Shown in pieces: positions 3,808-35,312 of a stretch of DNA of 35,312 nucleotides. Location: the IMG/VR virus record IMGVR_UViG_3300017786_000051, positions 1-35,312 of that record. One strand, given 5' to 3'. A program made the translations under genes and the position numbers. Under the pieces are notes generated by a model. It did no database searches and was not told where the DNA came from. It worked only from the letters and a program-made list of their open reading frames with translations. How positions within the stretch are numbered: position 1 is the stretch's first letter; every line of letters starts with the position of its first letter. Origin of the DNA: a virus.

Positions 3808-3995
3808 TACACCTCGCCTATGTCGTATGTATCCTGTTCAAATACTTCAGGAACACCTTCAAGTTCTTTCCAGTATCCTGCGAATATTTCATGTGCCTGT
3901 TCTTCTGCTTCTTCTTCCGAATCAGCCTTGACAGTTATTTCTTTAGATACAGATGCAACTATGTCAACTACAAATTTACGTTTCGCCTTTGTCAT
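3807..3995 (-). CDS. small DpnD/PcfM-like protein
   Basis: 62 residues. The pattern of a short beta strand (RKFVVDIVASVSKEITVKA), then SEEEAEEQAHEIF, and an acidic tail matches the small 'DpnD/PcfM-like' fold seen in phages and mobile elements; this is an inference from pattern only. The start at 3995 follows AAAAGGAACGAACGATG, the clearest copy of the shared leader. Function unknown. Confidence 0.55.
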   Translation of the reverse strand: MTKAKRKFVVDIVASVSKEITVKADSEEEAEEQAHEIFAGYWKELEGVPEVFEQDTYDIGEV

Positions 3996-4143
3996 CGTTC
4001 GTTCCTTTTAGCATTAGTTTCGTAATCTTGATAGAGACGGGACGATTACCTGTCAACTTAATTCGTCCCATGCGGTCATATTGAGGTTCAACCTCTAGGA
4101 TTTGCAAGTCCCTCTTTAGTTCCTTGAATGTCGGTACGTTCAT
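3976..4143 (-). CDS. 55-residue hypothetical protein
   Basis: A frame from ATG 4143 to TAA 3976 encodes MNVPTFKELKRDLQILE..., rich in Lys/Arg/Asp and ending KLMLKGTNDDKGET. It is preceded by AAAGGAAACCGACGATG, matching the shared leader, and overlaps the genes on both sides (20 bases downstream, 56 upstream). Overlapping so deeply on both sides is unusual, but the leader supports translation. No domain recognised. Confidence 0.5.
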   Translation of the reverse strand: MNVPTFKELKRDLQILEVEPQYDRMGRIKLTGNRPVSIKITKLMLKGTNDDKGET

Positions 4144-4363
4144 CGTCGGTTTCCTTTATTAACTGTGTTGACATTTTGTCCCATTCGCCACGCCGCATAC
4201 GAAACTTCTTGTTTTGTACTGGTGTGCAAATGCGAACCCACTTGTAACCGACAACAGCCCACACGAGCCGTGTGCCGGATACTGGTAATCTCATGTCGAA
4301 GAAATCCACGCGGTACAGCTTGGCGTTGTCCCACGCGGCTTCTTTAGGTCTAGCTACGTTCAT
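4088..4363 (-). CDS. hypothetical protein
   Basis: 91 residues, beginning MNVARPKEAAWDNAKLY. The first ~60 residues look beta-rich (LYRVDFFDMRLPV, RLVWAVVGYKWVRI) and the C-terminus is charged. The start overlaps the upstream stop by 14 bases and has only a weak ribosome site, so it may rely on translational coupling. The last 56 bases are shared with the next gene in another frame. Function unknown. Confidence 0.5.
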   Translation of the reverse strand: MNVARPKEAAWDNAKLYRVDFFDMRLPVSGTRLVWAVVGYKWVRICTPVQNKKFRMRRGEWDKMSTQLIKETDDERTDIQGTKEGLANPRG

Positions 4364-4631
4364 CTAAATTAAACTCAAACTTTAGTTTGTCCCGTGCATC
4401 TGACAACTCTTGCAATGCGTATGCTGACACACATTTGATACCCCCCATGTCAGGGTATAATGCCAAGTCTAAGACATCATCAAGCCACTTCTGTACCTCA
4501 ATTACAGCGCACCGTTGTTCCATAGACAGTTTACCAATGCGGTTTCTGCGCTGTATGCGTTCCTTTTCCCGTTGGTTTTCCCAATAGGCCATGCGTTCAT
4601 CAATCGTCATGTTCTCTAGTTTTTTAGACAT
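4350..4631 (-). CDS. hypothetical protein
   Basis: 93 residues, highly charged and helical, beginning MSKKLENMTIDERMAYW, with a long basic/acidic helix (QREKERIQRRNRIGKL) and an amphipathic second half. Start at 4631 chosen because GAAGGAAGCGAACGATG precedes it; the frame's upstream extension to 4709 overlaps the neighbouring gene and lacks a leader. No known domain. Confidence 0.55.
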   Translation of the reverse strand: MSKKLENMTIDERMAYWENQREKERIQRRNRIGKLSMEQRCAVIEVQKWLDDVLDLALYPDMGGIKCVSAYALQELSDARDKLKFEFNLDERS

Positions 4632-4839
4632 CGTTCGCTTCCTTCTCTTTTGGATACATCCATTCAGCATTGTAGTAAATAACTTCCCAGTTAATACCAA
4701 TACAGGCATCGTGGTTGTGTTTTAGATTGTGTAACACTTCCAGTGCCTGTTCTTCGGTGAGCCAGTCACACTCCTGCATCACGTCTTCAACAGACCACAC
4801 AATTGCAATCTCATCATCTTTTAGTTCTAGGGTTTCCAT
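4624..4839 (-). CDS. conserved small acidic phage protein
   Basis: 71 residues. The pattern EIAIVWSVEDVMQEC, LTEEQALEVLHNLKH and HDACIGINWEVI resembles a small acidic protein common in phages and plasmids with no known role. The start at 4839 follows GAAGGGAACGAACGATG. It is the first gene of the leftward small-gene operon, directly downstream of the promoter at 4873-4901. Confidence 0.6.
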   Translation of the reverse strand: METLELKDDEIAIVWSVEDVMQECDWLTEEQALEVLHNLKHNHDACIGINWEVIYYNAEWMYPKEKEANDV

Positions 4840-4872
4840 CGTTCGTTCCCTTCATTGATTAACGATACATAA

Positions 4873-4901
4873 CCAATATCGGTTATCAAACAGGCTGTCA
4901 A
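4873..4901 (-). promoter_or_regulatory. sigma-70-like promoter of small-gene operon
   Basis: On the minus strand TTGACA (4901-4896) is separated by exactly 17 bases from TATTGG (4878-4873), about 30 bases before the first ATG at 4839. The -35 is perfect; the -10 is weak but resembles the TATTTG of the replication-operon promoter at 5613-5641. The -35 begins right after the T-tract of the terminator at 4903-4943. Confidence 0.55.
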
Positions 4902-4902
4902 C

Positions 4903-4943
4903 AAAAAAAGAAACGGGGCTGGAAAATTAATCCCAACCCCGTT
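4903..4943 (-). terminator. rho-independent terminator
   Basis: CCAACCCCGTT (4933-4943) pairs with AACGGGGCTGG (4912-4922) as an 11-bp stem with one mismatch around a 10-base AT-rich loop. On the minus strand it is followed by a T-tract (4909-4903). It ends the leftward regulator operon 4968-5536 and separates it from the small-gene operon. Confidence 0.75.
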
Positions 4944-4967
4944 CCCCAACCAACGAACGAAACAACC

Positions 4968-5219
4968 TCACGACACCTCGTAAGGTATCCCTAGTTTTAA
5001 CACCACCTGTTTATGTTCGTCAAGCCATTTTTTACATTCCCACCGACTTTTTCCGACAAACAATACAACGTGACGCAGATAGTCTACACAATCTTTTGAC
5101 TTCACCAGTTCACGGTCTGTTTCACCAATACGAACAGACGATGCCGGAACAATCAAAGCCCACTTGTAATCAGGCCGTTCTACAATTTCTACTTCAAGTT
5201 TCTCAGTCTTTAGAGACAT
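4968..5219 (-). CDS. hypothetical protein
   Basis: 83 residues, beginning MSLKTEKLEVEIVERPD. Beta-rich N-terminal half, then a helical charged segment (SKDCVDYLRHVV) and GKSRWECKKWLDEHKQVV. The start at 5219 follows GAGGAG inside the upstream gene with a 10-base spacer, which is better than the ATG at 5237. It lies directly downstream of the ribbon-helix-helix gene (17-base overlap) and just before a terminator, so the two are probably co-expressed. Function unknown. Confidence 0.55.
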   Translation of the reverse strand: MSLKTEKLEVEIVERPDYKWALIVPASSVRIGETDRELVKSKDCVDYLRHVVLFVGKSRWECKKWLDEHKQVVLKLGIPYEVS

Positions 5220-5412
5220 CTGCGTCGTGCTCCTCATCTAATGCTTCAAGATATAATGCAATCCCGTCACGGATTAAATCACCTACACTAACCTGTTCGT
5301 AACTTTTCTTATCTAGCTTCTTTGCGTGGAAAGCTAGCCTGTCGTACTGTTCTACAGATATTAGCAGACTATACACTTTAGTTGGTTCAGGTATCTTGGC
5401 TGGTCTTGCCAT
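5203..5412 (-). CDS. ribbon-helix-helix regulator
   Basis: 69 residues with the layout of a CopG/Arc-type ribbon-helix-helix protein: a beta strand (KVYSLLISVEQY, ~12-23), a first helix (YDRLAFHAKKLDKK), and a second helix with the typical SVGDLIRDGIALYLEAL (~42-58). Such proteins bind operators as dimers through the paired strands. The acidic tail (DEEHDADVSKD) is unusual. AAGGAACTGAGGAATG gives a good ribosome site. Its gene sits beside the divergent control region 5537-5663, so repressing that region is the natural inference. It could instead be a small antitoxin-like protein, but no toxin-like partner is obvious. Confidence 0.65.
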   Translation of the reverse strand: MARPAKIPEPTKVYSLLISVEQYDRLAFHAKKLDKKSYEQVSVGDLIRDGIALYLEALDEEHDADVSKD

Positions 5413-5536
5413 TCCTCAGTTCCTTCTTTACAAGTTTATCTAATTTATCTTTTTTCTTGTTGGGGACAACCTGCTTGGTATACCGTTTGTCCCTTAACAG
5501 TTTAGCTATAGGGTTTATTTTATTAGTTATTTTCAT
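5387..5536 (-). CDS. 49-residue ArfA-like basic protein
   Basis: A frame from ATG 5536 to TGA 5387 encodes MKITNKINPIAKLLRDK... and ends NGKTSQDT. The segment NPIAKLLRDKRYTKQV then VPNKKKDK lines up with the N-terminal core of the ribosome-rescue factor ArfA: N.I..LL.D followed by V..NKK.K. In ArfA this part precedes the basic tail that enters the mRNA channel. Here the product is strongly basic and of plausible size. It overlaps the ribbon-helix-helix gene by 26 bases and is first in the leftward operon. The match is short, so the role (rescue of stalled ribosomes during infection) is an inference. Confidence 0.5.
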   Translation of the reverse strand: MKITNKINPIAKLLRDKRYTKQVVPNKKKDKLDKLVKKELRNGKTSQDT

Positions 5537-5663
5537 AGTAGGGTTTCCCTGTAGGGTTACTGTTCTTATTGCGTATCACGCTTGTCAATAGTTCGTCAAC
5601 CAAAAAATGTAGTTGACACGGATTTTATTGTGGCGTATTTGTCAACGCCATAGGAGATAGCCA
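5537..5663. promoter_or_regulatory. divergent control region
   Basis: 127 bases between the leftward regulator operon and the rightward replication operon. The rightward promoter is listed separately. On the minus strand there are two -35-like boxes, TTGACG (5599-5594) and TTGACA (5588-5583), but no good -10 at 16-18 bases, so the leftward promoter is unclear. TGGCG (5631-5635) and CGCCA (5646-5650) form an inverted repeat spanning the rightward -10, a likely operator. Confidence 0.55.
5613..5641 (+). promoter_or_regulatory. promoter of the replication operon
   Basis: TTGACA (5613-5618), a 17-base spacer, then TATTTG (5636-5641), followed by AGGAG and the primase ATG at 5664. The -10 lies between the arms of the TGGCG/CGCCA inverted repeat, so a bound protein would block it. 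The -35 is perfect and the -10 weak, as in the promoter at 4873-4901. Confidence 0.6.
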
Positions 5664-6458
5664 ATGACAGTTTGGTTAAAAGATTACGTTGAAGGATTGA
5701 CAATTGCACCAGAGGGTCGTCTGCGAATAGACTGCCCTGCGTGTGGTAAAAAGAACACGTTCAGTGTTAGCGACACTGGCGGCGAACGACTGTGGTTTTG
5801 CTTTCATGCAGACTGTGGGGTTCGTGGACGGACAGGATTTAGGGTTCGCAAAGATGCCCCCTATCATCCCTTGCTAAAGAAAGTGCAACCTGTTCGCAAA
5901 CCCGATGACGAACAAGTCTTTGAAATACCTGAAACTTTCGTGGCTCTCTCCCGCGAACCCGATGCCGAATCTTATGTCAAGCGGGTCAATGCTTACGATG
6001 CGTACCTATCTGGTCGTGTCGATATTCGTTATGATTTCCGAATGAACCGTGTTGTTTATCTAATTAAAGATGGACGCAAGACTGTTGATGCGGCGGGTCG
6101 TAGTTTAGCTAACATCAAACCAAAGTGGTGGAGATATGGAAAGTCAGGTAATCCTTTCATTTGCGGTGCCAGCCGCATCGGTGTTGTTTTGGAAGACTGT
6201 GCTTCTGCTTGCAGTGTATCTAATATTCTTTCGGGGATAGCATTGCTTGGCACAAACTTACAGGACAGTCATTTGCCGTTCCTGCGGCGTTATGATAGAC
6301 TGCTGGTTGCGCTGGACAAAGACGCAACGCAAAAGGCGTTTCAACTTGTTCGGCAACTACAGGCTCACAGGCCTACTAGCTTAGTTGTTTTAAACAAAGA
6401 TGTGAAAGATATGACAGATGATGAACGAAGACAAACCTTCCAGAAATACATCGATTGA
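5664..6458 (+). CDS. DNA primase (zinc ribbon + TOPRIM)
   Basis: 264 residues equivalent to the primase half of T7 gp4. An N-terminal zinc ribbon has C24PAC27 and a second cluster with C46, H48 and C51. The TOPRIM core includes VVLEDCAS (E177) followed by GIALLG, and LLVALDKDA with D218 and D220, which in this family bind the catalytic metal. It should lay RNA primers on single-stranded DNA for lagging-strand synthesis. Start ATG 5664 follows AGGAGATAGCCA. It overlaps the helicase gene by 41 bases. In T7 primase and helicase are one polypeptide; here they are two, so physical coupling would have to be by interaction. Confidence 0.9.
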   Translation: MTVWLKDYVEGLTIAPEGRLRIDCPACGKKNTFSVSDTGGERLWFCFHADCGVRGRTGFRVRKDAPYHPLLKKVQPVRKPDDEQVFEIPETFVALSREPDAESYVKRVNAYDAYLSGRVDIRYDFRMNRVVYLIKDGRKTVDAAGRSLANIKPKWWRYGKSGNPFICGASRIGVVLEDCASACSVSNILSGIALLGTNLQDSHLPFLRRYDRLLVALDKDATQKAFQLVRQLQAHRPTSLVVLNKDVKDMTDDERRQTFQKYID

Positions 6459-7659
6459 AATACAGGTATTAGGATTTCTGCTAAACAGAAAATTCTACGA
6501 CAAGGTAAAGAACATTGTGACCCGCGACATGTTCGAAGGACGTTATGTTACTTTGTTCGATACGATATCCTATGCACATAAGAATTATGATACGGATTTG
6601 TCGCGTGACCAGTTAGATTCACTGTTCATGGACAGGAACCCTGCTATGCCTCACAGTGCGCGGCAAGAGGTGTTCGACATAATATCCAACTTATCCGAAC
6701 ATATGTCGGATGCTGGCGACTTAGAGGCGGATATAGTCAAGAACTTTTGGGTTCGCGATAAGGCACGGCAGATTGGTGAAAAAGCTATATCAATCTTTAC
6801 TGGCGAATCGGAACACTTTGGTGAACTAAAGACGCTAATAGACATGGTAGAGGACGGGCGTATGTCCGACAAGACTACCTATAGCGAGATGGACAAAGAC
6901 TTTGTGCAACTCATGGAAGAAGAGGTTGGCGAACCAGACTTCCCGTTCACTTGGGATTTACTAAACGAACACCTGTCGGGTATGGACAGAGGTAATCTAG
7001 GTATTATCTTTGCCCGTCCAGAGGTTGGCAAGACCACCTTCTGTGCATTTGTTGCCGCAAGCTACATCAAACAGAAACACAAAGTAGTCTATTGGGCTAA
7101 CGAGGAACCAGCCGAAAAGATTAAGCTGCGGATAATACAGAGTTTTTTCGGCCTTACCCGTGAAGAGATGACACAAGGTGCGGATGCTTTGTCACAACGT
7201 TACCTTGAAGAGATAGAGCCATACCTTGTTGTGATGGATTCGGTCGGTACATCTATGGAAGAATTAAACGACTATGCCCAACTCAATGAGCCGGACGTGA
7301 TGTTCTGTGACCAGCTAGATAAGTTTCGCGTTGCGGGTGAGTTCAATCGTGGTGATGAACGTCTGAAGGAAACTTATGTTGTTGCCCGTGAGATAGCAAA
7401 GCGTAACAAACTATTGGTGTGGTCAGTTAGCCAAGCCAGCTTTGAGGCGCATGACCGTCAGTTCATTGACTACGCTATGCTTGACGGTTCGCGAACAGGT
7501 AAGGCAGGTGAAGCTGATGTAATCATTGGTATTGGTAAGACAGGTACATCCGAAGAGGAGAATACCACACGTCACATCTGCATCTCTAAGAACAAACTGA
7601 ACGGTTGGCATGGTATGTTTACCAGCCACATCGATGTGCAACGGGGGCTGTATTACTGA
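6418..7659 (+). CDS. replicative DNA helicase, DnaB type
   Basis: About 413 residues. The N-terminal domain (~10-150) begins SIEIQVLGFLLNRKFYDKV, like the DnaB N-terminal helical domain. The RecA-type motor has Walker A ARPEVGKTTF (199-208), very close to the DnaB consensus ARPxxGKTTF, and Walker B DVMFCDQLDK (~293-302). Later motifs include LLVWSVSQAS and a final conserved stretch with SKNKLNG. Two adjacent ATGs (6418, 6421) are possible; neither has a strong ribosome site, so coupling to primase translation is likely. The stop overlaps the exonuclease start as TGATG. It unwinds DNA at the phage fork and partners the separate primase. Confidence 0.9.
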   Translation: MMNEDKPSRNTSIEIQVLGFLLNRKFYDKVKNIVTRDMFEGRYVTLFDTISYAHKNYDTDLSRDQLDSLFMDRNPAMPHSARQEVFDIISNLSEHMSDAGDLEADIVKNFWVRDKARQIGEKAISIFTGESEHFGELKTLIDMVEDGRMSDKTTYSEMDKDFVQLMEEEVGEPDFPFTWDLLNEHLSGMDRGNLGIIFARPEVGKTTFCAFVAASYIKQKHKVVYWANEEPAEKIKLRIIQSFFGLTREEMTQGADALSQRYLEEIEPYLVVMDSVGTSMEELNDYAQLNEPDVMFCDQLDKFRVAGEFNRGDERLKETYVVAREIAKRNKLLVWSVSQASFEAHDRQFIDYAMLDGSRTGKAGEADVIIGIGKTGTSEEENTTRHICISKNKLNGWHGMFTSHIDVQRGLYY

Positions 7660-8243
7660 TGAACGTACTTACTTTTGACGTGGAGACTACCCACAAGCAC
7701 AAGCCCAATGGTTCGACAACTGCCTTGCCTTACTTTGGAAACTCTTTAGTTTCAATAGGTTATAAGCGGCTGTCTTCACCCTACATACATTATCATTGTT
7801 ACTATCACGCAGACAGAGAACCCCACGATTTTGCACCTGAACTATTTCAAGAAGCACTTGACGAGGCAGACATGGTTGTGGGACAAAACATTAAGTTTGA
7901 TTTATCTTGGATACGGGAGTGCGGTTTTGTTTATGACGGTGATATCTACGATACGATGGTGGCGGAATATATTCTTGCGAAGGCGCAGCGTTGGCCTCTT
8001 GGACTTGCTGCTCTTACAGAAAAGTATGACGTTACCCGCAAGGAGAAAGACCTTGTGGAGCCGTATCTTAAAGCGGGGAAGACGTTCTACGACATCCCGT
8101 GGGAGATAGTAGAAGAGTACGGTAAAGCTGACGTACAGGCTACAGAAGAGATAGCACTAAAACAGCTAGAGGCCTTTGGCACTACATTTGAGGAATTTTA
8201 CAATGCAGCGAACTTTACTACCGACACTAAGACTGTCGCTTGA
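7659..8243 (+). CDS. DEDD 3'-5' exonuclease (split from DNA polymerase)
   Basis: 194 residues forming a DnaQ-like proofreading domain. Motif I is FDVET (D7, E9), motif II NIKFD (N77, D81), and motif III YGKAD (Y154, D158), so all four acidic residues and the DEDDy tyrosine are present. In T7 and most phage family-A polymerases this domain is the N-terminal part of the polymerase; here the frame stops at 8243 and the polymerase continues in the +1 frame. Start ATG 7659 overlaps the helicase stop (TGATG); the longer frame from 7605 lies inside helicase coding. It probably proofreads in complex with the polymerase. A programmed frameshift near GCT-TGA could also make a fusion, see findings. Confidence 0.88.
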   Translation: MNVLTFDVETTHKHKPNGSTTALPYFGNSLVSIGYKRLSSPYIHYHCYYHADREPHDFAPELFQEALDEADMVVGQNIKFDLSWIRECGFVYDGDIYDTMVAEYILAKAQRWPLGLAALTEKYDVTRKEKDLVEPYLKAGKTFYDIPWEIVEEYGKADVQATEEIALKQLEAFGTTFEEFYNAANFTTDTKTVA

Positions 8244-9747
8244 GATGACAGACGTTCTGGCTCGTATGGAGCAGAACGGACTGAAGATAAACAGACAGAC
8301 GTTAGCAGAAATTCGTAGTGAATACGAGGAAGAACTGTTTACATTGGAGCGGCGACTTAACGAACTTGCAGCAGAGGCTATGGGGGACACTCCCGTGAAC
8401 CTCGACAGTCCTGATGACCGTTCCAAGCTTTTTTATTCATGCTGTGTGTTGGACAAGAACAGGTGGGCTGGCGTGTTCAATCTTGGTCACGAGATTCGCG
8501 GTGCGGGAAAGAAGCCAAAGAGGCGTACCCGTATGAGCCGTGCTGACTTTCGGCGAACCGTTGTCAACGAGACTGATGTACTGTATAAAACAAAGGGTAG
8601 TCAGTGTACCGATTGCGGCGGCGTAGGGCGTTATACAGCCCGTAAGAAGGATGGCACACTGGGTAAGGCTGTCCGAATCTGTAAGCCCTGTCAGGGCAAG
8701 GGTGTGCTCTATGTACCCACAGGACAGGTAGCGGGGTTCAAGCTTATCCCCCGTGACCCCTACGATGTGGCGGCGGCGGGATTCAAGACAGATAAAGAAA
8801 CCCTTGAAAGTATGTTCACATCATTAAGAGGAGAAGCCCGTGAATTTGCAGAAGCTTATATACGATACAGTGCGGTTCGAACCTACCTTCGTTCGTTTGT
8901 TGAAGGTATGGAAAACAACATGGATGCGAACGGTTTCATCCACACAGAATTCATGCAGTGTGTTACGGCGACGGGTCGCCTTTCGTCTAGGAATCCGAAC
9001 TTCCAAAATATGCCACGAGGTTCTACCTTCATTATTCGTAGGGCTGTCGAAAGCAGGTTCGAGGGCGGTTACATACTTGAAGGAGACTATGCCCAGCTTG
9101 AGTTTAGGGTTGCTGGCTTTCTTGCTGATGACCCTGCTATACGAGATGATGTAGAGGCAGGTACAGATGTTCACAGCTATACTGCTGGTGTTATCGGATG
9201 CTCACGACAGGACGCGAAAGCACACACGTTCAAACCGCTCTATGGTGGGGTATCTGGTACAGAAGACCAGAAGCGTTATTACAATGCATTCAAAGAAAAA
9301 TACAGCAGCGTCACCAAGTGGCACGAAAGATTGCAAAAAGACGCCGTAACTAAGAAGTACATTGAACTGCCATCAGGACGCCAGTATGCTTTTCCAAAGG
9401 CTAGGTGGACAGAATGGGGAGCAGCCACTGACCGAACCGCAATCTGTAACTACCCAGTTCAGGGGTTCGCCACGGCTGACTTGTTACCGACTGCCTTGGT
9501 TCGACTAAGCAGAATGATGCAAACCAGAAATATGCTTTCTGTAATCTGCAACACAGTTCACGATTCGATTGTTCTTGATGTGCACCCCGAAGAAAAAGAG
9601 GCTTGCATCAACCTGTTAGCTGACTGTATGCTGGCTATACCTACTGAGACTTTGAACCGCTACGGGTTCGAATATAACATGCCTGTTGGGATAGAATTAA
9701 AAATAGGTGAAAATTGGCTTGACTTGGAAGAGATACTAACTGTATAA
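8203..9747 (+). CDS. family-A DNA polymerase with DnaJ-like zinc finger
   Basis: 514 residues, lacking an exonuclease domain. The thumb begins with LEMTDVLARMEQNGL. A DnaJ-like double zinc finger follows: C135TDC138GGVG and C160KPC163QGKG, a signature of HMO-2011-type polymerases. The palm and fingers have motif A DYAQLE (D295), motif B RQDAKAHTFKPLYG (R335, K339, F343, Y347) and motif C VHDS (H453, D454). F343 corresponds to E. coli Phe762, which affects sugar selectivity and processivity. Start ATG 8203 follows GAGGAA with a 7-base spacer; the TTG at 8176 has no site. It overlaps the exonuclease gene by 41 bases. Confidence 0.93.
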   Translation: MQRTLLPTLRLSLEMTDVLARMEQNGLKINRQTLAEIRSEYEEELFTLERRLNELAAEAMGDTPVNLDSPDDRSKLFYSCCVLDKNRWAGVFNLGHEIRGAGKKPKRRTRMSRADFRRTVVNETDVLYKTKGSQCTDCGGVGRYTARKKDGTLGKAVRICKPCQGKGVLYVPTGQVAGFKLIPRDPYDVAAAGFKTDKETLESMFTSLRGEAREFAEAYIRYSAVRTYLRSFVEGMENNMDANGFIHTEFMQCVTATGRLSSRNPNFQNMPRGSTFIIRRAVESRFEGGYILEGDYAQLEFRVAGFLADDPAIRDDVEAGTDVHSYTAGVIGCSRQDAKAHTFKPLYGGVSGTEDQKRYYNAFKEKYSSVTKWHERLQKDAVTKKYIELPSGRQYAFPKARWTEWGAATDRTAICNYPVQGFATADLLPTALVRLSRMMQTRNMLSVICNTVHDSIVLDVHPEEKEACINLLADCMLAIPTETLNRYGFEYNMPVGIELKIGENWLDLEEILTV

Positions 9748-11538: not shown

Positions 11539-11933
11539 TGCCTGTTCTGTACACACGGGAGTACCCCCACGAACTATTTGAACTCAATCCAGAGTTGCGT
11601 TGTGTGTTCGTTGAATCACACGAGCGTCGTGGGGGTGGTCGCTCTACTGTAAGGGTTCGCCAACTAGAGATTAGGCTACCCATTACCTTACGTAACAATT
11701 TTTCATCTGAGGGTACTTTGGATTCGCGAACCGAATCACGAGACATTAAGCTTATTGAAGAGGAGTTTCAAAACGTTGTTCATCACCTACGACAGGGAGT
11801 CACCGTATGTCTACCGACGTTAGCATTGTCTCAAGAACTAGAGCAGCTAAAAAAGCAATCACCAAAAGTAGAACAGTATCTGTTGAAAAGGCTAGAAGGG
11901 GTAAAGGCGGGGTTTCCGTTGCAAGGATTATGA
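11538..11933 (+). CDS. conserved phage protein of unknown function
   Basis: 131 residues, beginning MPVLYTREYPHELFELNP. The N-terminal half has a RRGGGRSTVRVRQL stretch, and the second half a helix (DIKLIEEEFQNVVHHL) followed by a hydrophobic strand and a helical tail. Proteins with this architecture are widespread in marine and enteric phage replication modules, but I know of no function. The start overlaps the nuclease stop. Its last ~127 bases are also read in another frame by the endonuclease I gene. Confidence 0.7.
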   Translation: MPVLYTREYPHELFELNPELRCVFVESHERRGGGRSTVRVRQLEIRLPITLRNNFSSEGTLDSRTESRDIKLIEEEFQNVVHHLRQGVTVCLPTLALSQELEQLKKQSPKVEQYLLKRLEGVKAGFPLQGL

Positions 11934-12301
11934 GAGGAACAAGATACAGGTCACATTTCGAGATTGGGTTAGCCAAGTCACTTTTTGAAAAGAAAGTTGC
12001 GTTTGAATACGAGGGTTCGAAATTTACTTACATACCCAAGCCGCGAACCTACACCCCTGACTTTTATCTACCTGAGCAGGACATATACATAGAAGCCAAG
12101 GGCAATCTAGACAAGGGTGACCGTGTTAAAATGCAGCTAATCAAGCAGCAACATCCCGAACTAGACATACGGTTTGTATTCCAACGTGCCCGTAACAAGA
12201 TATACCGGGGTAGCAAGACCACCTACGCTGACTGGGCGAACCGCTATGGCTTTCCGTGGGCAGAAGGCGGTATACCAGAGGAGTGGTTTAAAAATGACTG
12301 A
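11807..12301 (+). CDS. endonuclease I, T7 gp3-like (Holliday junction resolvase)
   Basis: 164 residues. The C-terminal ~120 match T7 endonuclease I: HFEIGLAKSL (E52), FEYEG, TYTPDF (D85), IEAKG (E96, K98) and QHPELDIRFVFQ, with the catalytic order and spacing of T7 E20/D55/E65/K67. It cuts branched DNA and helps break host DNA and resolve replication intermediates. I take the start ATG 11807 because GGGAG lies 7 bases upstream. This gives a basic N-terminal extension (~42 aa) encoded entirely inside the preceding gene. ATG 11930 would overlap the stop as ATGA but has a poor ribosome site and would place the first catalytic Glu at residue 11. Confidence 0.88.
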   Translation: MSTDVSIVSRTRAAKKAITKSRTVSVEKARRGKGGVSVARIMRGTRYRSHFEIGLAKSLFEKKVAFEYEGSKFTYIPKPRTYTPDFYLPEQDIYIEAKGNLDKGDRVKMQLIKQQHPELDIRFVFQRARNKIYRGSKTTYADWANRYGFPWAEGGIPEEWFKND

Positions 12302-12653: not shown

Positions 12654-12925
12654 GACACGAATCATACATGAAAGAACTTGAACAGGCCGGAAAAGAAGCA
12701 TACGGAAACGTAGACATGGTAAACTCTCCGCCACACTATAATAAGGCGGGGGTAGAATGTATTGATGCTATAGAATCCGCTACAGAAGATGGGTTCGAAT
12801 ATTATTTACAGGGAAACATACTGAAATACCTGTGGAGATACCGTTACAAGAACGGTGTTGAAGATTTAGAAAAAGCTAAGTGGTACTTAGAAAAACTTAT
12901 TAATATAAAGGGAGACAACCGATGA
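12650..12925 (+). CDS. DUF3310 family protein (SaV-like)
   Basis: 91 residues. The DUF3310 signature is clear: NSPPHYNKAGVECIDAIES, then YYLQGNILKYLWRYR and a closing DLEKAKWYLEKLI. This family occurs next to nucleotide-metabolism genes in many phages and is sometimes called nucleotide kinase, without strong evidence. The start overlaps the previous stop (ATGA), and the end overlaps the ribonucleotide reductase start (ATGA), which fits a role in dNTP supply. Confidence 0.85.
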   Translation: MRHESYMKELEQAGKEAYGNVDMVNSPPHYNKAGVECIDAIESATEDGFEYYLQGNILKYLWRYRYKNGVEDLEKAKWYLEKLINIKGDNR

Positions 12926-14850
12926 ACAACCTACTACCAACTGTATACCAGCAGTTTATTCACAAATCACGCTATGCTCGTTGGGTAGACGAAGAAGGCC
13001 GCAGAGAAAACTGGGATGAGACAGTTGACCGGTATATTGGATTTATGCAAGACCATGTGCTGATGAAGCACAACGTAAAGCTGCAAGACAAGACAGTGAA
13101 CGAGATTCGTGATTCTGTGTTAAGTCTGCAGGTTATGCCTAGTATGAGAGCCATGATGACTTCTGGTCCGGCTCTCGCTCGTGACAACATCTGTGGTTAC
13201 AACTGTAGCTACATCCCTGTGGATAGCCCCCGTGCGTTCGATGAATGTATGTATATTTTGATGTGTGGCACCGGGGTTGGATTTAGTGTGGAGAGAGAGA
13301 ATGTTGATAGACTTCCTGTGGTATCTGACAATTTTGGGGATTCTGACATCGTTATAACTGTGGGTGATAGCAAGCCGGGGTGGGCAAAAGCATTTCGCGA
13401 ACTGATAGCTTTACTTTACGCTGGACAAATTCCTACATGGGATATGTCAGCAATTAGACCTTCTGGCTCCCGTTTGAAAGTTATGGGGGGTAGAGCCAGT
13501 GGTCCACAGCCTCTGATAGACCTGTTTAACTTTGCTGTTCAGGTGTTTAAGAAATCGGCTGGACGTAGGCTGTACCCTATTGAGTGCCACGACCTTATGT
13601 GTAAGGTGGGCGAGGTAGTTGTTGTGGGGGGCGTTCGTCGCTCTGCCTTGATTAGTCTGTCTAATCTTAACGATGACCAAATGCGCCACGCTAAGTCAGG
13701 TAACTGGTGGGAGCACGAAGGACAACGTGCGTTGGCTAACAATTCTGTATCCTACAAAGAGAAGCCCCAGATGGAAACCTTCATGCGGGAATGGTTGGCT
13801 CTTGTAGAGTCTAAGTCTGGCGAGCGGGGTATCTTCAACCGTGAGGCTGCAGACAAGCAGGTAGGCCGCAATGGACGCCGCGAACAGGGTCACATGTGGG
13901 GCACCAACCCATGTTCGGAGATTATCCTTCGTGGCTACCAGTTCTGTAATCTGTCAGAGGTGGTGGTTCGTGAATCAGATAGCTTGGAAGACTTAAAGAG
14001 CAAGGTTCGTGTAGCTACAATCCTTGGAACCCTTCAGTCTACTTTGACTGACTTCAAATACTTGAGGAAGATATGGAAAGACAACACAGAGGAAGAGCGT
14101 TTGTTAGGCGTCTCCTTGACTGGTATCATGGACCATCCCGTTTTATCCAAAAATGTAGACAGCAAGCGTTGGCTAGAAGAGATGCGGCGAACAGCAGTAG
14201 ACACAAACCTGAAATTTGCGAACATGCTTGGAATCCCGCAGAGCACTGCAATCACCTGTGTAAAGCCGTCGGGTACTGTGTCTCAACTGGTGGACGCAGC
14301 AAGCGGGATACATGCACGACACAACGACCACTTTATCAGAACCGTTCGCGGCGATAACAAAGACCCGCTGACTCAGTTCCTGATTAATGAGGGCGTACAT
14401 AGTGAGCGGGATATGATGAAGCCTGACAGTGTTACTGTGTTCAGTTTTCCTATGAAGTCTCCAACAGGTGCAGTCACACGAACCCAGATGACAGCTATCG
14501 AACAGCTTGAGTTGTGGAAGACTTACGCTATTCACTGGTGTGAACACAAGCCATCTATCACTGTGACTGTAAAGGAACATGAGTGGATGGAAGTCGGTGC
14601 GTGGGTGTACGAGAACTTTGATGTAGCATCAGGTGTATCGTTCTTGCCTCACGACGACCATACATACCAGCAAGCTCCTTATCAGGATATTGGACCTGAT
14701 GAATATCTTGAGTGGGAGCAGGTGTACGAACATGTTCACATTGACTGGAACAAGTTGACAGAGTTCGAAAAAGAAGATAATACTAGTGGTTCGCGGGAAC
14801 TGGCCTGTACGGCTGGAGTTTGTGAAGTTGTAGATTTGAGTGCGGCGTGA
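12922..14850 (+). CDS. nrdJ: class II (adenosylcobalamin-dependent) ribonucleotide reductase
   Basis: 642 residues, resembling the monomeric ribonucleoside-triphosphate reductase of lactobacilli (739 aa). Key residues are visible: C95 in NICGYNCSY, C331 and E333 in NPCSEI, C342 in FCNLSEV with the same 11-residue spacing as C408/C419 of the family, and a C-terminal CTAGVC pair for electron entry. It makes dNTPs without oxygen or a small subunit but requires adenosylcobalamin from the host. No thioredoxin partner is seen nearby, so host thioredoxin is presumably used. Start overlaps the previous stop as ATGA, with GGGAG upstream. Class II reductases are common in marine phages of B12-containing hosts. 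Confidence 0.93.
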   Translation: MNNLLPTVYQQFIHKSRYARWVDEEGRRENWDETVDRYIGFMQDHVLMKHNVKLQDKTVNEIRDSVLSLQVMPSMRAMMTSGPALARDNICGYNCSYIPVDSPRAFDECMYILMCGTGVGFSVERENVDRLPVVSDNFGDSDIVITVGDSKPGWAKAFRELIALLYAGQIPTWDMSAIRPSGSRLKVMGGRASGPQPLIDLFNFAVQVFKKSAGRRLYPIECHDLMCKVGEVVVVGGVRRSALISLSNLNDDQMRHAKSGNWWEHEGQRALANNSVSYKEKPQMETFMREWLALVESKSGERGIFNREAADKQVGRNGRREQGHMWGTNPCSEIILRGYQFCNLSEVVVRESDSLEDLKSKVRVATILGTLQSTLTDFKYLRKIWKDNTEEERLLGVSLTGIMDHPVLSKNVDSKRWLEEMRRTAVDTNLKFANMLGIPQSTAITCVKPSGTVSQLVDAASGIHARHNDHFIRTVRGDNKDPLTQFLINEGVHSERDMMKPDSVTVFSFPMKSPTGAVTRTQMTAIEQLELWKTYAIHWCEHKPSITVTVKEHEWMEVGAWVYENFDVASGVSFLPHDDHTYQQAPYQDIGPDEYLEWEQVYEHVHIDWNKLTEFEKEDNTSGSRELACTAGVCEVVDLSAA

Positions 14851-34801: not shown

Positions 34802-35312
34802 CTATGCTGCTAGTGCAGGATTACTAGCATCCACTTGCATCCACTTCGACCATTCTGAATAGTAATGACGCATACCTACTTCATCGTGGATTGTACTGTT
34901 TTCGTGTCGTCCGTGTAAAATGTTCCGTGGTTCGGTGCCCTCTCGCATTGTTGTACCTTGACCTGCAACACCAATCAGGTCTTCATGTAGGTTCCGACCA
35001 AACGGTCCCCATATAGAGTTGTGATGTCTGATACGAGTATGCCTTTCTTCTTCTGTGTCCCTACATAAGCCGTAGCCCCGAAACTCAATAAGAACTTTGT
35101 TCGGTCCTAACGGTGTTACGCTATCACTGCGATAGGCACTGCCACGTAAATTAAAGTTGTAGCCGGGAAACAAGTCTACCATATACCATTGGTTAGGCGG
35201 AAGGTTAGGGAAACTAAGTTCTCCTCTGTCTTCAAAACCATCGTACTCTTCGTAGTTAACTGTAAAGCTACTGACGTTGACGTGTCCGTTATCAAATGGG
35301 ATATTTTTTCTA
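34802..35312 (-). CDS. Rieske oxygenase alpha subunit, catalytic domain (MsmA-like), partial
   Basis: The frame is open to the window edge, so the N-terminus with the Rieske [2Fe-2S] domain is outside. The ~169 visible residues match the C-terminal catalytic domain of ring-hydroxylating oxygenase alpha subunits: LSFPNLPPNQWYMVDL, a SVTPLGPNKVLIEF strand pair, then FGRNLHEDLIGVAGQG, where the Asp of HED aligns with the metal-binding Asp of the facial triad, and a closing HYYSEWSKWM helix. HMO-2011-type phages are reported to carry an atypical methanesulfonate monooxygenase of this family. The likely role is an auxiliary metabolic enzyme for organosulfur or another small substrate, but the substrate is not proven by this fragment. 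Confidence 0.75.
   Translation of the reverse strand, partial: RKNIPFDNGHVNVSSFTVNYEEYDGFEDRGELSFPNLPPNQWYMVDLFPGYNFNLRGSAYRSDSVTPLGPNKVLIEFRGYGLCRDTEEERHTRIRHHNSIWGPFGRNLHEDLIGVAGQGTTMREGTEPRNILHGRHENSTIHDEVGMRHYYSEWSKWMQVDASNPALAA

Follow-up and report, generated by a model that had tools for sequence, protein, structure and literature searches.

The window, one whole viral record of 35,312 b, ends within a gene for which we use the label A', meaning a Rieske-less MsmA-type alpha subunit (Table 1). The open reading frame is present as the first-pass annotation had called it, with 169 amino acids, and with the window being the entire record and the frame running open on its 5' side to the end of the contig, the gene is cut short there. 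Two members of the iron triad, H174 and H178 in the numbering of the full-length relative L005, fall off the contig, and the aspartate alone lies on it; we presume the ligand role of this residue from PF00848 and from what is generally known of Rieske oxygenases. The gene had been described as lying next to virion genes, and we observe that it does share the minus strand with tail genes; for the late timing or packaging raised along with this, the shared strand counts as positional evidence. The plus strand carries a replication cluster that includes a B12-dependent-type ribonucleotide reductase and a phage endonuclease I, in a layout typical of podoviruses.

Table 1. Positions of the features discussed, in the window and in related viral and bacterial records
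Feature	Record	Position	Strand	Basis or remark
A' gene, 3' end (169 codons and stop)	Window	34802..35311	-	ORF, 5'-open at contig end
Codon of Asp, presumed mononuclear-iron carboxylate ligand (...NLHEDLIGV..., D303 in L005)	Window	34979..34981	-	Sequence and alignment
Window A' fragment on full-length relative	L005	Residues 193-361		Alignment
Phage endonuclease I	Window	11807-12301	+	Replication cluster
Ribonucleotide reductase, B12-dependent type	Window	12922-14850	+	Replication cluster
Loop at former Rieske site	L005	2561-2678 (approx.)		Hypervariable in phages
A' on T4-like contig	L165	10001-11089		Binned as Rickettsiales MAG
Gene X	L150	7656-8495		Uncharacterized Msm-associated protein
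Gene X	L263	8555-9385		Uncharacterized Msm-associated protein
Gene X	L164	8924-9805		Uncharacterized Msm-associated protein
DMSO-reductase-like set	L263 (presumed IMCC1322)	3912-8502		Between MsmC and gene X

The closest described protein is gp61 of Puniceispirillum phage HMO-2011, whose annotation reads methanesulfonate monooxygenase hydroxylase alpha subunit; the fragment is 88% identical to it over 167 amino acids (E 3e-97), in agreement with the homology first proposed. One IMG/VR locus (L003) is 100% identical to the fragment, and the 80 closest of at least 595 such loci are 92 to 100% identical; judged by sequence identity, the likeness to gp61 and to these relatives is far beyond chance. 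The assignment to the catalytic domain of ring-hydroxylating oxygenases stands as well, with a ring-hydroxylase alpha-subunit fold and with PF00848 exceeding the Pfam cut-off in full-length relatives (27.7 to 31.9 bits), although the window fragment alone stays below it (E 0.028; 14.8 bits versus 24.9). No PHROGs family matched the A' protein, and a phmmer search of the fragment against the PDB returned chance hits only. The gene is orthologous to HMO-2011 gp61, which likewise lacks the Rieske motif and keeps the iron triad intact, yet the phages themselves differ: virion proteins are mostly 34 to 52% identical (70% over part of the g43 homologue), and A' in the window lies beside tail gene g45, as in L006, whereas that of HMO-2011 lies upstream of lysozyme and terminase.

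The first-pass annotation had named the enzyme a Rieske oxygenase and expected a CxH...CxxH motif upstream, an expectation that failed in all 141 full-length viral relatives compared. The pattern was found in 0 of 80 IMG/VR loci, these being the 80 closest of at least 595, and in the alignment the Cys-His-Cys-His ligands are missing, their columns deleted, from all 142 phage A' rows (140 full-length viral relatives, HMO-2011 gp61, and one truncated 61-aa ORF). The iron-binding His-His-Asp (H174, H178, and D303 in L005) is kept in 141/141 intact phage rows, and the Glu at the bridging position is invariant in the alignment. The absence of the motif from the HMO-2011 protein, from many marine metagenomic MsmAs, and from one of the two MsmAs of IMCC1322 was reported in 2015 (PMC4433239), together with the 26-residue spacer in the Rieske motif of MsmA (PMC4433239). 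This long-spacer motif is absent from A' and present in all canonical MsmA and in the host fusions described below.

Comparison with canonical MsmA (e.g., that of Filomicrobium, L170) locates the loss. The two align along the N-terminus (MPxRNH...), the initial strands of the Rieske domain, the hinge, and a catalytic domain with all its iron ligands, and A' differs in lacking the whole CxH-X26-CxxH region: the stretch with both Cys-His pairs measures 83 aa in canonical MsmA and 32 to 40 aa in phages. Since the N-terminus and the flanking strands are kept, the loss is internal and affects the cluster-binding loops, with a net reduction of about 50 aa (A' mostly 352 to 381 aa, canonical MsmA 409 to 431 aa). 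The AlphaFold2 model of A' has a two-domain Rieske-oxygenase fold (pLDDT 77.7; pTM 0.84), matched best in the PDB by terephthalate dioxygenase, salicylate 5-hydroxylase, and CntA. Because model confidence is low around segment 171-192, which holds the iron helix, we claim no metal geometry.

At the family level, A' and canonical MsmA are 50 to 59% identical over their full length, and in a tree confined to Msm-type oxygenases the Rieske-less proteins form a clade apart from canonical MsmA (support 100/99). By sequence the A' catalytic domain appears to group with MsmA and to be nearest to the canonical form, and the nearest bacterial relatives fall inside the MsmA family, so that the placement within the Rieske oxygenase family originally given is upheld. 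Phage monophyly is not rejected (p-AU 0.559), and the tree therefore does not settle between a host-first and a phage-first origin of A'.

Redox partners are not evident on the phage side. Reductase and ferredoxin partners, whose presence the first-pass annotation had raised, were not found in the phage records searched: no Rieske domain exceeded the cut-off in 23 viral records, no reductase match occurred in 18, and neither MsmB, MsmC, nor the gene X described below was seen within the fetched viral flanks. A scan of 2.9 million viral contigs for the Rieske-bearing host fusion, based on a few peptide patterns that could miss distant relatives, gave two hits, both to the reductase part. Because full-length viral relatives lack CxH...CxxH and no partner was found, A' is, as far as its sequence tells, a Rieske-less catalytic subunit derived from MsmA and not a complete Rieske oxygenase.

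A genome scan recovered two kinds of bacterial A' relatives, namely, canonical MsmA with the CxH-X26-CxxH motif, found in Hyphomicrobiales and others, and a Rieske-less host A' of 362 to 364 aa that is 74 to 80% identical to the query and occurs on SAR116 contigs, in one Magnetovibrio MAG, and in a few other MAGs. In addition, hosts encode a fusion of 787 to 857 aa that combines an intact MsmA-type Rieske motif, a shrunken remnant of the MsmA catalytic domain, and a Pyr_redox_2 reductase. By alignment column, the Rieske ligands are present in 58/58 canonical MsmA, in all 14 fusion rows (13 distinct genes, as L252 duplicates another), and in 0/15 host A', and the iron ligands in 58/58, 0/14, and 15/15, respectively. 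A 16th row (L225) was left out of the host A' count; it had been a candidate Rieske-less protein, but its length is canonical and the pattern was missed because of one ambiguous ligand residue. The losses are thus complementary at the level of aligned residues, the fusion lacking the iron ligands and A' the Rieske site, and the usual single MsmA alpha subunit appears in SAR116 hosts and in one Magnetovibrio MAG as two genes that replace it. The same pair is carried by a single-contig genome (G114) that we take to be “Ca. Puniceispirillum marinum” IMCC1322, the host of HMO-2011; its fusion has Gln and Lys at the two iron-His positions and no Asp. Each of the two msmA-type genes of IMCC1322 is therefore incomplete alone, since the Rieske-bearing one has no iron ligands and the other no Rieske site. 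A fold prediction of the fusion had too little confidence for any use (pLDDT 47.5).

The two halves occur together. A' was detected in 12 of 136 genomes of the SAR116 order and the fusion in the same 12, with none of the 136 carrying only one half. Eleven of these fusions were found by search, including one broken into two ORFs (G004), and the twelfth is that of G003, where the contig ends inside the fusion gene and leaves a 124-aa tail that is 98% identical. The sole member of the order found to encode canonical MsmA (G015; 420 aa) has neither fusion nor A', and the Magnetovibrio MAG (G013), which was not among the matches of the SAR116-order search, has both. Two further contigs filed as bacterial (L163 and L165) were set apart as probable phage because the fusion is absent from their genomes and a T4-like NrdA is encoded on L165.

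The host locus reads, in order, MsmEFGH-like ABC transporter, fusion, MsmB, MsmC (a Rieske ferredoxin), gene X, and A', followed by a LysR regulator, the sulfite exporter TauE, PanB, formate-THF ligase, and FolD. TauE and the C1-folate genes fit sulfite and formaldehyde as products of methanesulfonate oxidation. Gene X encodes 274 to 293 aa, and two copies scanned against Pfam gave no match. Its place in split loci is between MsmC and A'; it also occurs close to many canonical msm loci and hence is not specific to the split. As a phage-carried partner it was rejected, no homologue being found in 18 phage records or in the fetched viral flanks. The presumed IMCC1322 locus (L263) additionally holds a DMSO-reductase-like set composed of a molybdopterin oxidoreductase, a 4Fe-4S protein, and a third ORF.

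Among viruses the gene is widespread, with at least 595 to 599 viral loci in IMG/VR encoding A' relatives. We compared 16 cultured HMO-2011-type marine phages: A' is present in the SAR116 phage only and absent from 11 Roseobacter and 4 Pelagibacter phages that have the terminase in common, an association with host range that rests on one cultured SAR116 phage. The contig L165, placed in a Rickettsiales MAG by binning, resembles a T4-like phage, its NrdA being approximately 70% identical to those of cyanomyoviruses, and so the Rieske-less subunit probably occurs outside podoviruses as well. Given this contig and the different arrangements in the window and HMO-2011, A' seems to move between phage lineages. 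A 55.9-kb contig (IMGVR_UViG_3300025128_000048; L008 and L035) has A' matches at both ends, 97% and 96% identical to the query, which reflects either overlapping ends with some strain variation or a second copy.

The phage catalytic part is under strong purifying selection. Counted by NG86 over pairs with dS of 0.1 to 1.5, which leaves out many saturated pairs, dN/dS is about 0.03 for the catalytic part of phage A' and about 0.74 in the loop where the Rieske site used to be, and the corresponding host values, from few pairs, are 0.014 and 0.10. The loop is hypervariable in phages, with 90 versions of 32 to 40 aa among 140 proteins; in hosts it is conserved and fixed at 33 aa. As a host-type metabolic gene with chromosomal homologues in SAR116 and under purifying selection, A' qualifies as a phage auxiliary metabolic gene.

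The split architecture appears to follow that of NdmC and NdmD, the former a catalytic subunit without a Rieske cluster and the latter a partner reductase that carries one; the subfamily of NdmCDE is, we assume, a different one from that of MsmA. In the N7-demethylase NdmCDE of Pseudomonas putida CBB5, which acts in caffeine degradation, NdmC has no Rieske cluster and the reductase NdmD has an extra one (PMC4408171); NdmD is described as having two [2Fe-2S] clusters with FMN and NADH domains. The systems differ in that the host Rieske site belongs to an entire MsmA remnant, whose catalytic domain is degenerate and which is joined to a Pyr_redox_2-type reductase, and in that MsmB and MsmC persist in the split msm loci.

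We favor, with a probability of about 0.68, the reading that A' represents one half, the catalytic one with the mononuclear iron, of a split methanesulfonate monooxygenase and that phage A' joins the host complex. By analogy to NdmC and NdmD, the phage protein would most likely borrow electrons from the host half. That the phage in this way swaps the catalytic subunit of a host hetero-enzyme for one that bears a hypervariable patch in place of the Rieske loops, and so controls substrate flux without encoding a redox partner, we hold only slightly more probable than its opposite. Both halves would assemble with MsmB and MsmC, and electrons would pass from NADH to the FAD reductase, possibly through the Rieske ferredoxin MsmC, to the Rieske site of the fusion and then across the subunit interface to the iron of A'. 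Ordinary Rieske oxygenases have the iron of one subunit reduced by the Rieske cluster of the adjacent one, about 12 Å away (PMC12445004), and therefore loss of the Rieske site in one subunit and of the iron in the other would leave a productive interface. During infection, the host complex would take in phage A', which may sustain or retune the oxidation of methanesulfonate, or of another methyl-sulfur compound related to it, yielding sulfite and formaldehyde; these would feed sulfite oxidation and the folate C1 pools, the latter being useful for nucleotide synthesis. Methanesulfonate as substrate of the split enzyme is suggested by homology and by operon content.

Certain points weigh against this reading. 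If the alpha subunits simply formed a trimer, mixed assembly would leave few of the interfaces productive, and the fast evolution of the phage loop is unexpected for a tightly conserved interface at that place. MsmC, itself a Rieske protein, might moreover reduce A' directly, with the fusion Rieske site shuttling electrons to MsmC or being vestigial and the enzyme still split. The Rieske motif on MsmC, its position in the same locus, and the retained strands of the former Rieske domain in A', a possible docking site, would suit such a route, but the X26 Rieske motif is kept in every fusion copy, which argues that the fusion still performs the electron transfer of an alpha subunit and makes this route unlikely. 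Fusion and A' could also act on different reactions. A', in host and phage, would then use a different donor to catalyze, for example, the conversion of another C1-sulfur compound, as the DMSO-reductase-like genes inside the presumed IMCC1322 locus and the distance of several genes between A' and the fusion in some hosts (L264 and L265) may hint; in view of the strict co-occurrence of A' with the fusion and of the closeness of its catalytic part to canonical MsmA, we regard this as slightly less likely still. An inhibitor or decoy that replaces host A', stopping or diverting the reaction to spare NADH and O2 or to avoid formaldehyde, would accord with the single subunit carried by phages and with a loop that is hypervariable in phages and fixed in hosts. 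We consider it improbable, since very strong purifying selection maintains the iron ligands together with the entire catalytic part, which a decoy would not require. Finally, a complete Rieske oxygenase of the ordinary MsmA type, as proposed at first and as the PF00848 match and the HMO-2011 annotation would suggest, is very nearly discounted by the absence of Rieske ligands from every full-length viral relative.

Both the phage gene and its lack of the motif were already on record (PMC4433239). The two MsmA proteins of IMCC1322 noted there are the same two host genes, one without the motif, but that study records the motif's presence in one only (PMC4433239), and here we observe in addition the loss of the iron ligands and the fusion to a reductase. 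The host-enzyme split is not described in the openly readable literature searched; what appears new is that the host enzyme is divided between complementary halves and that the phage gene would accordingly depend on the host half.

The split would give a reason for the lack of a Rieske cluster in the abundant viral “MsmA,” which is probably half of a split oxygenase and not a broken one. For SAR116, a dominant ocean clade, it corrects the reading of the methanesulfonate enzyme, whose two annotated MsmA genes are each incomplete alone. In surveys of msmA, a requirement for the X26 motif would miss the catalytic half, and those based on the catalytic domain would count phage copies as host enzyme. 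If true, this would be the second case, after NdmC and NdmD, of a Rieske oxygenase with its two metal sites on different genes, and it provides a model, open to direct test, in which a phage metabolic gene can work only by docking into a host complex, as part of sulfur and C1 cycling in surface seawater.
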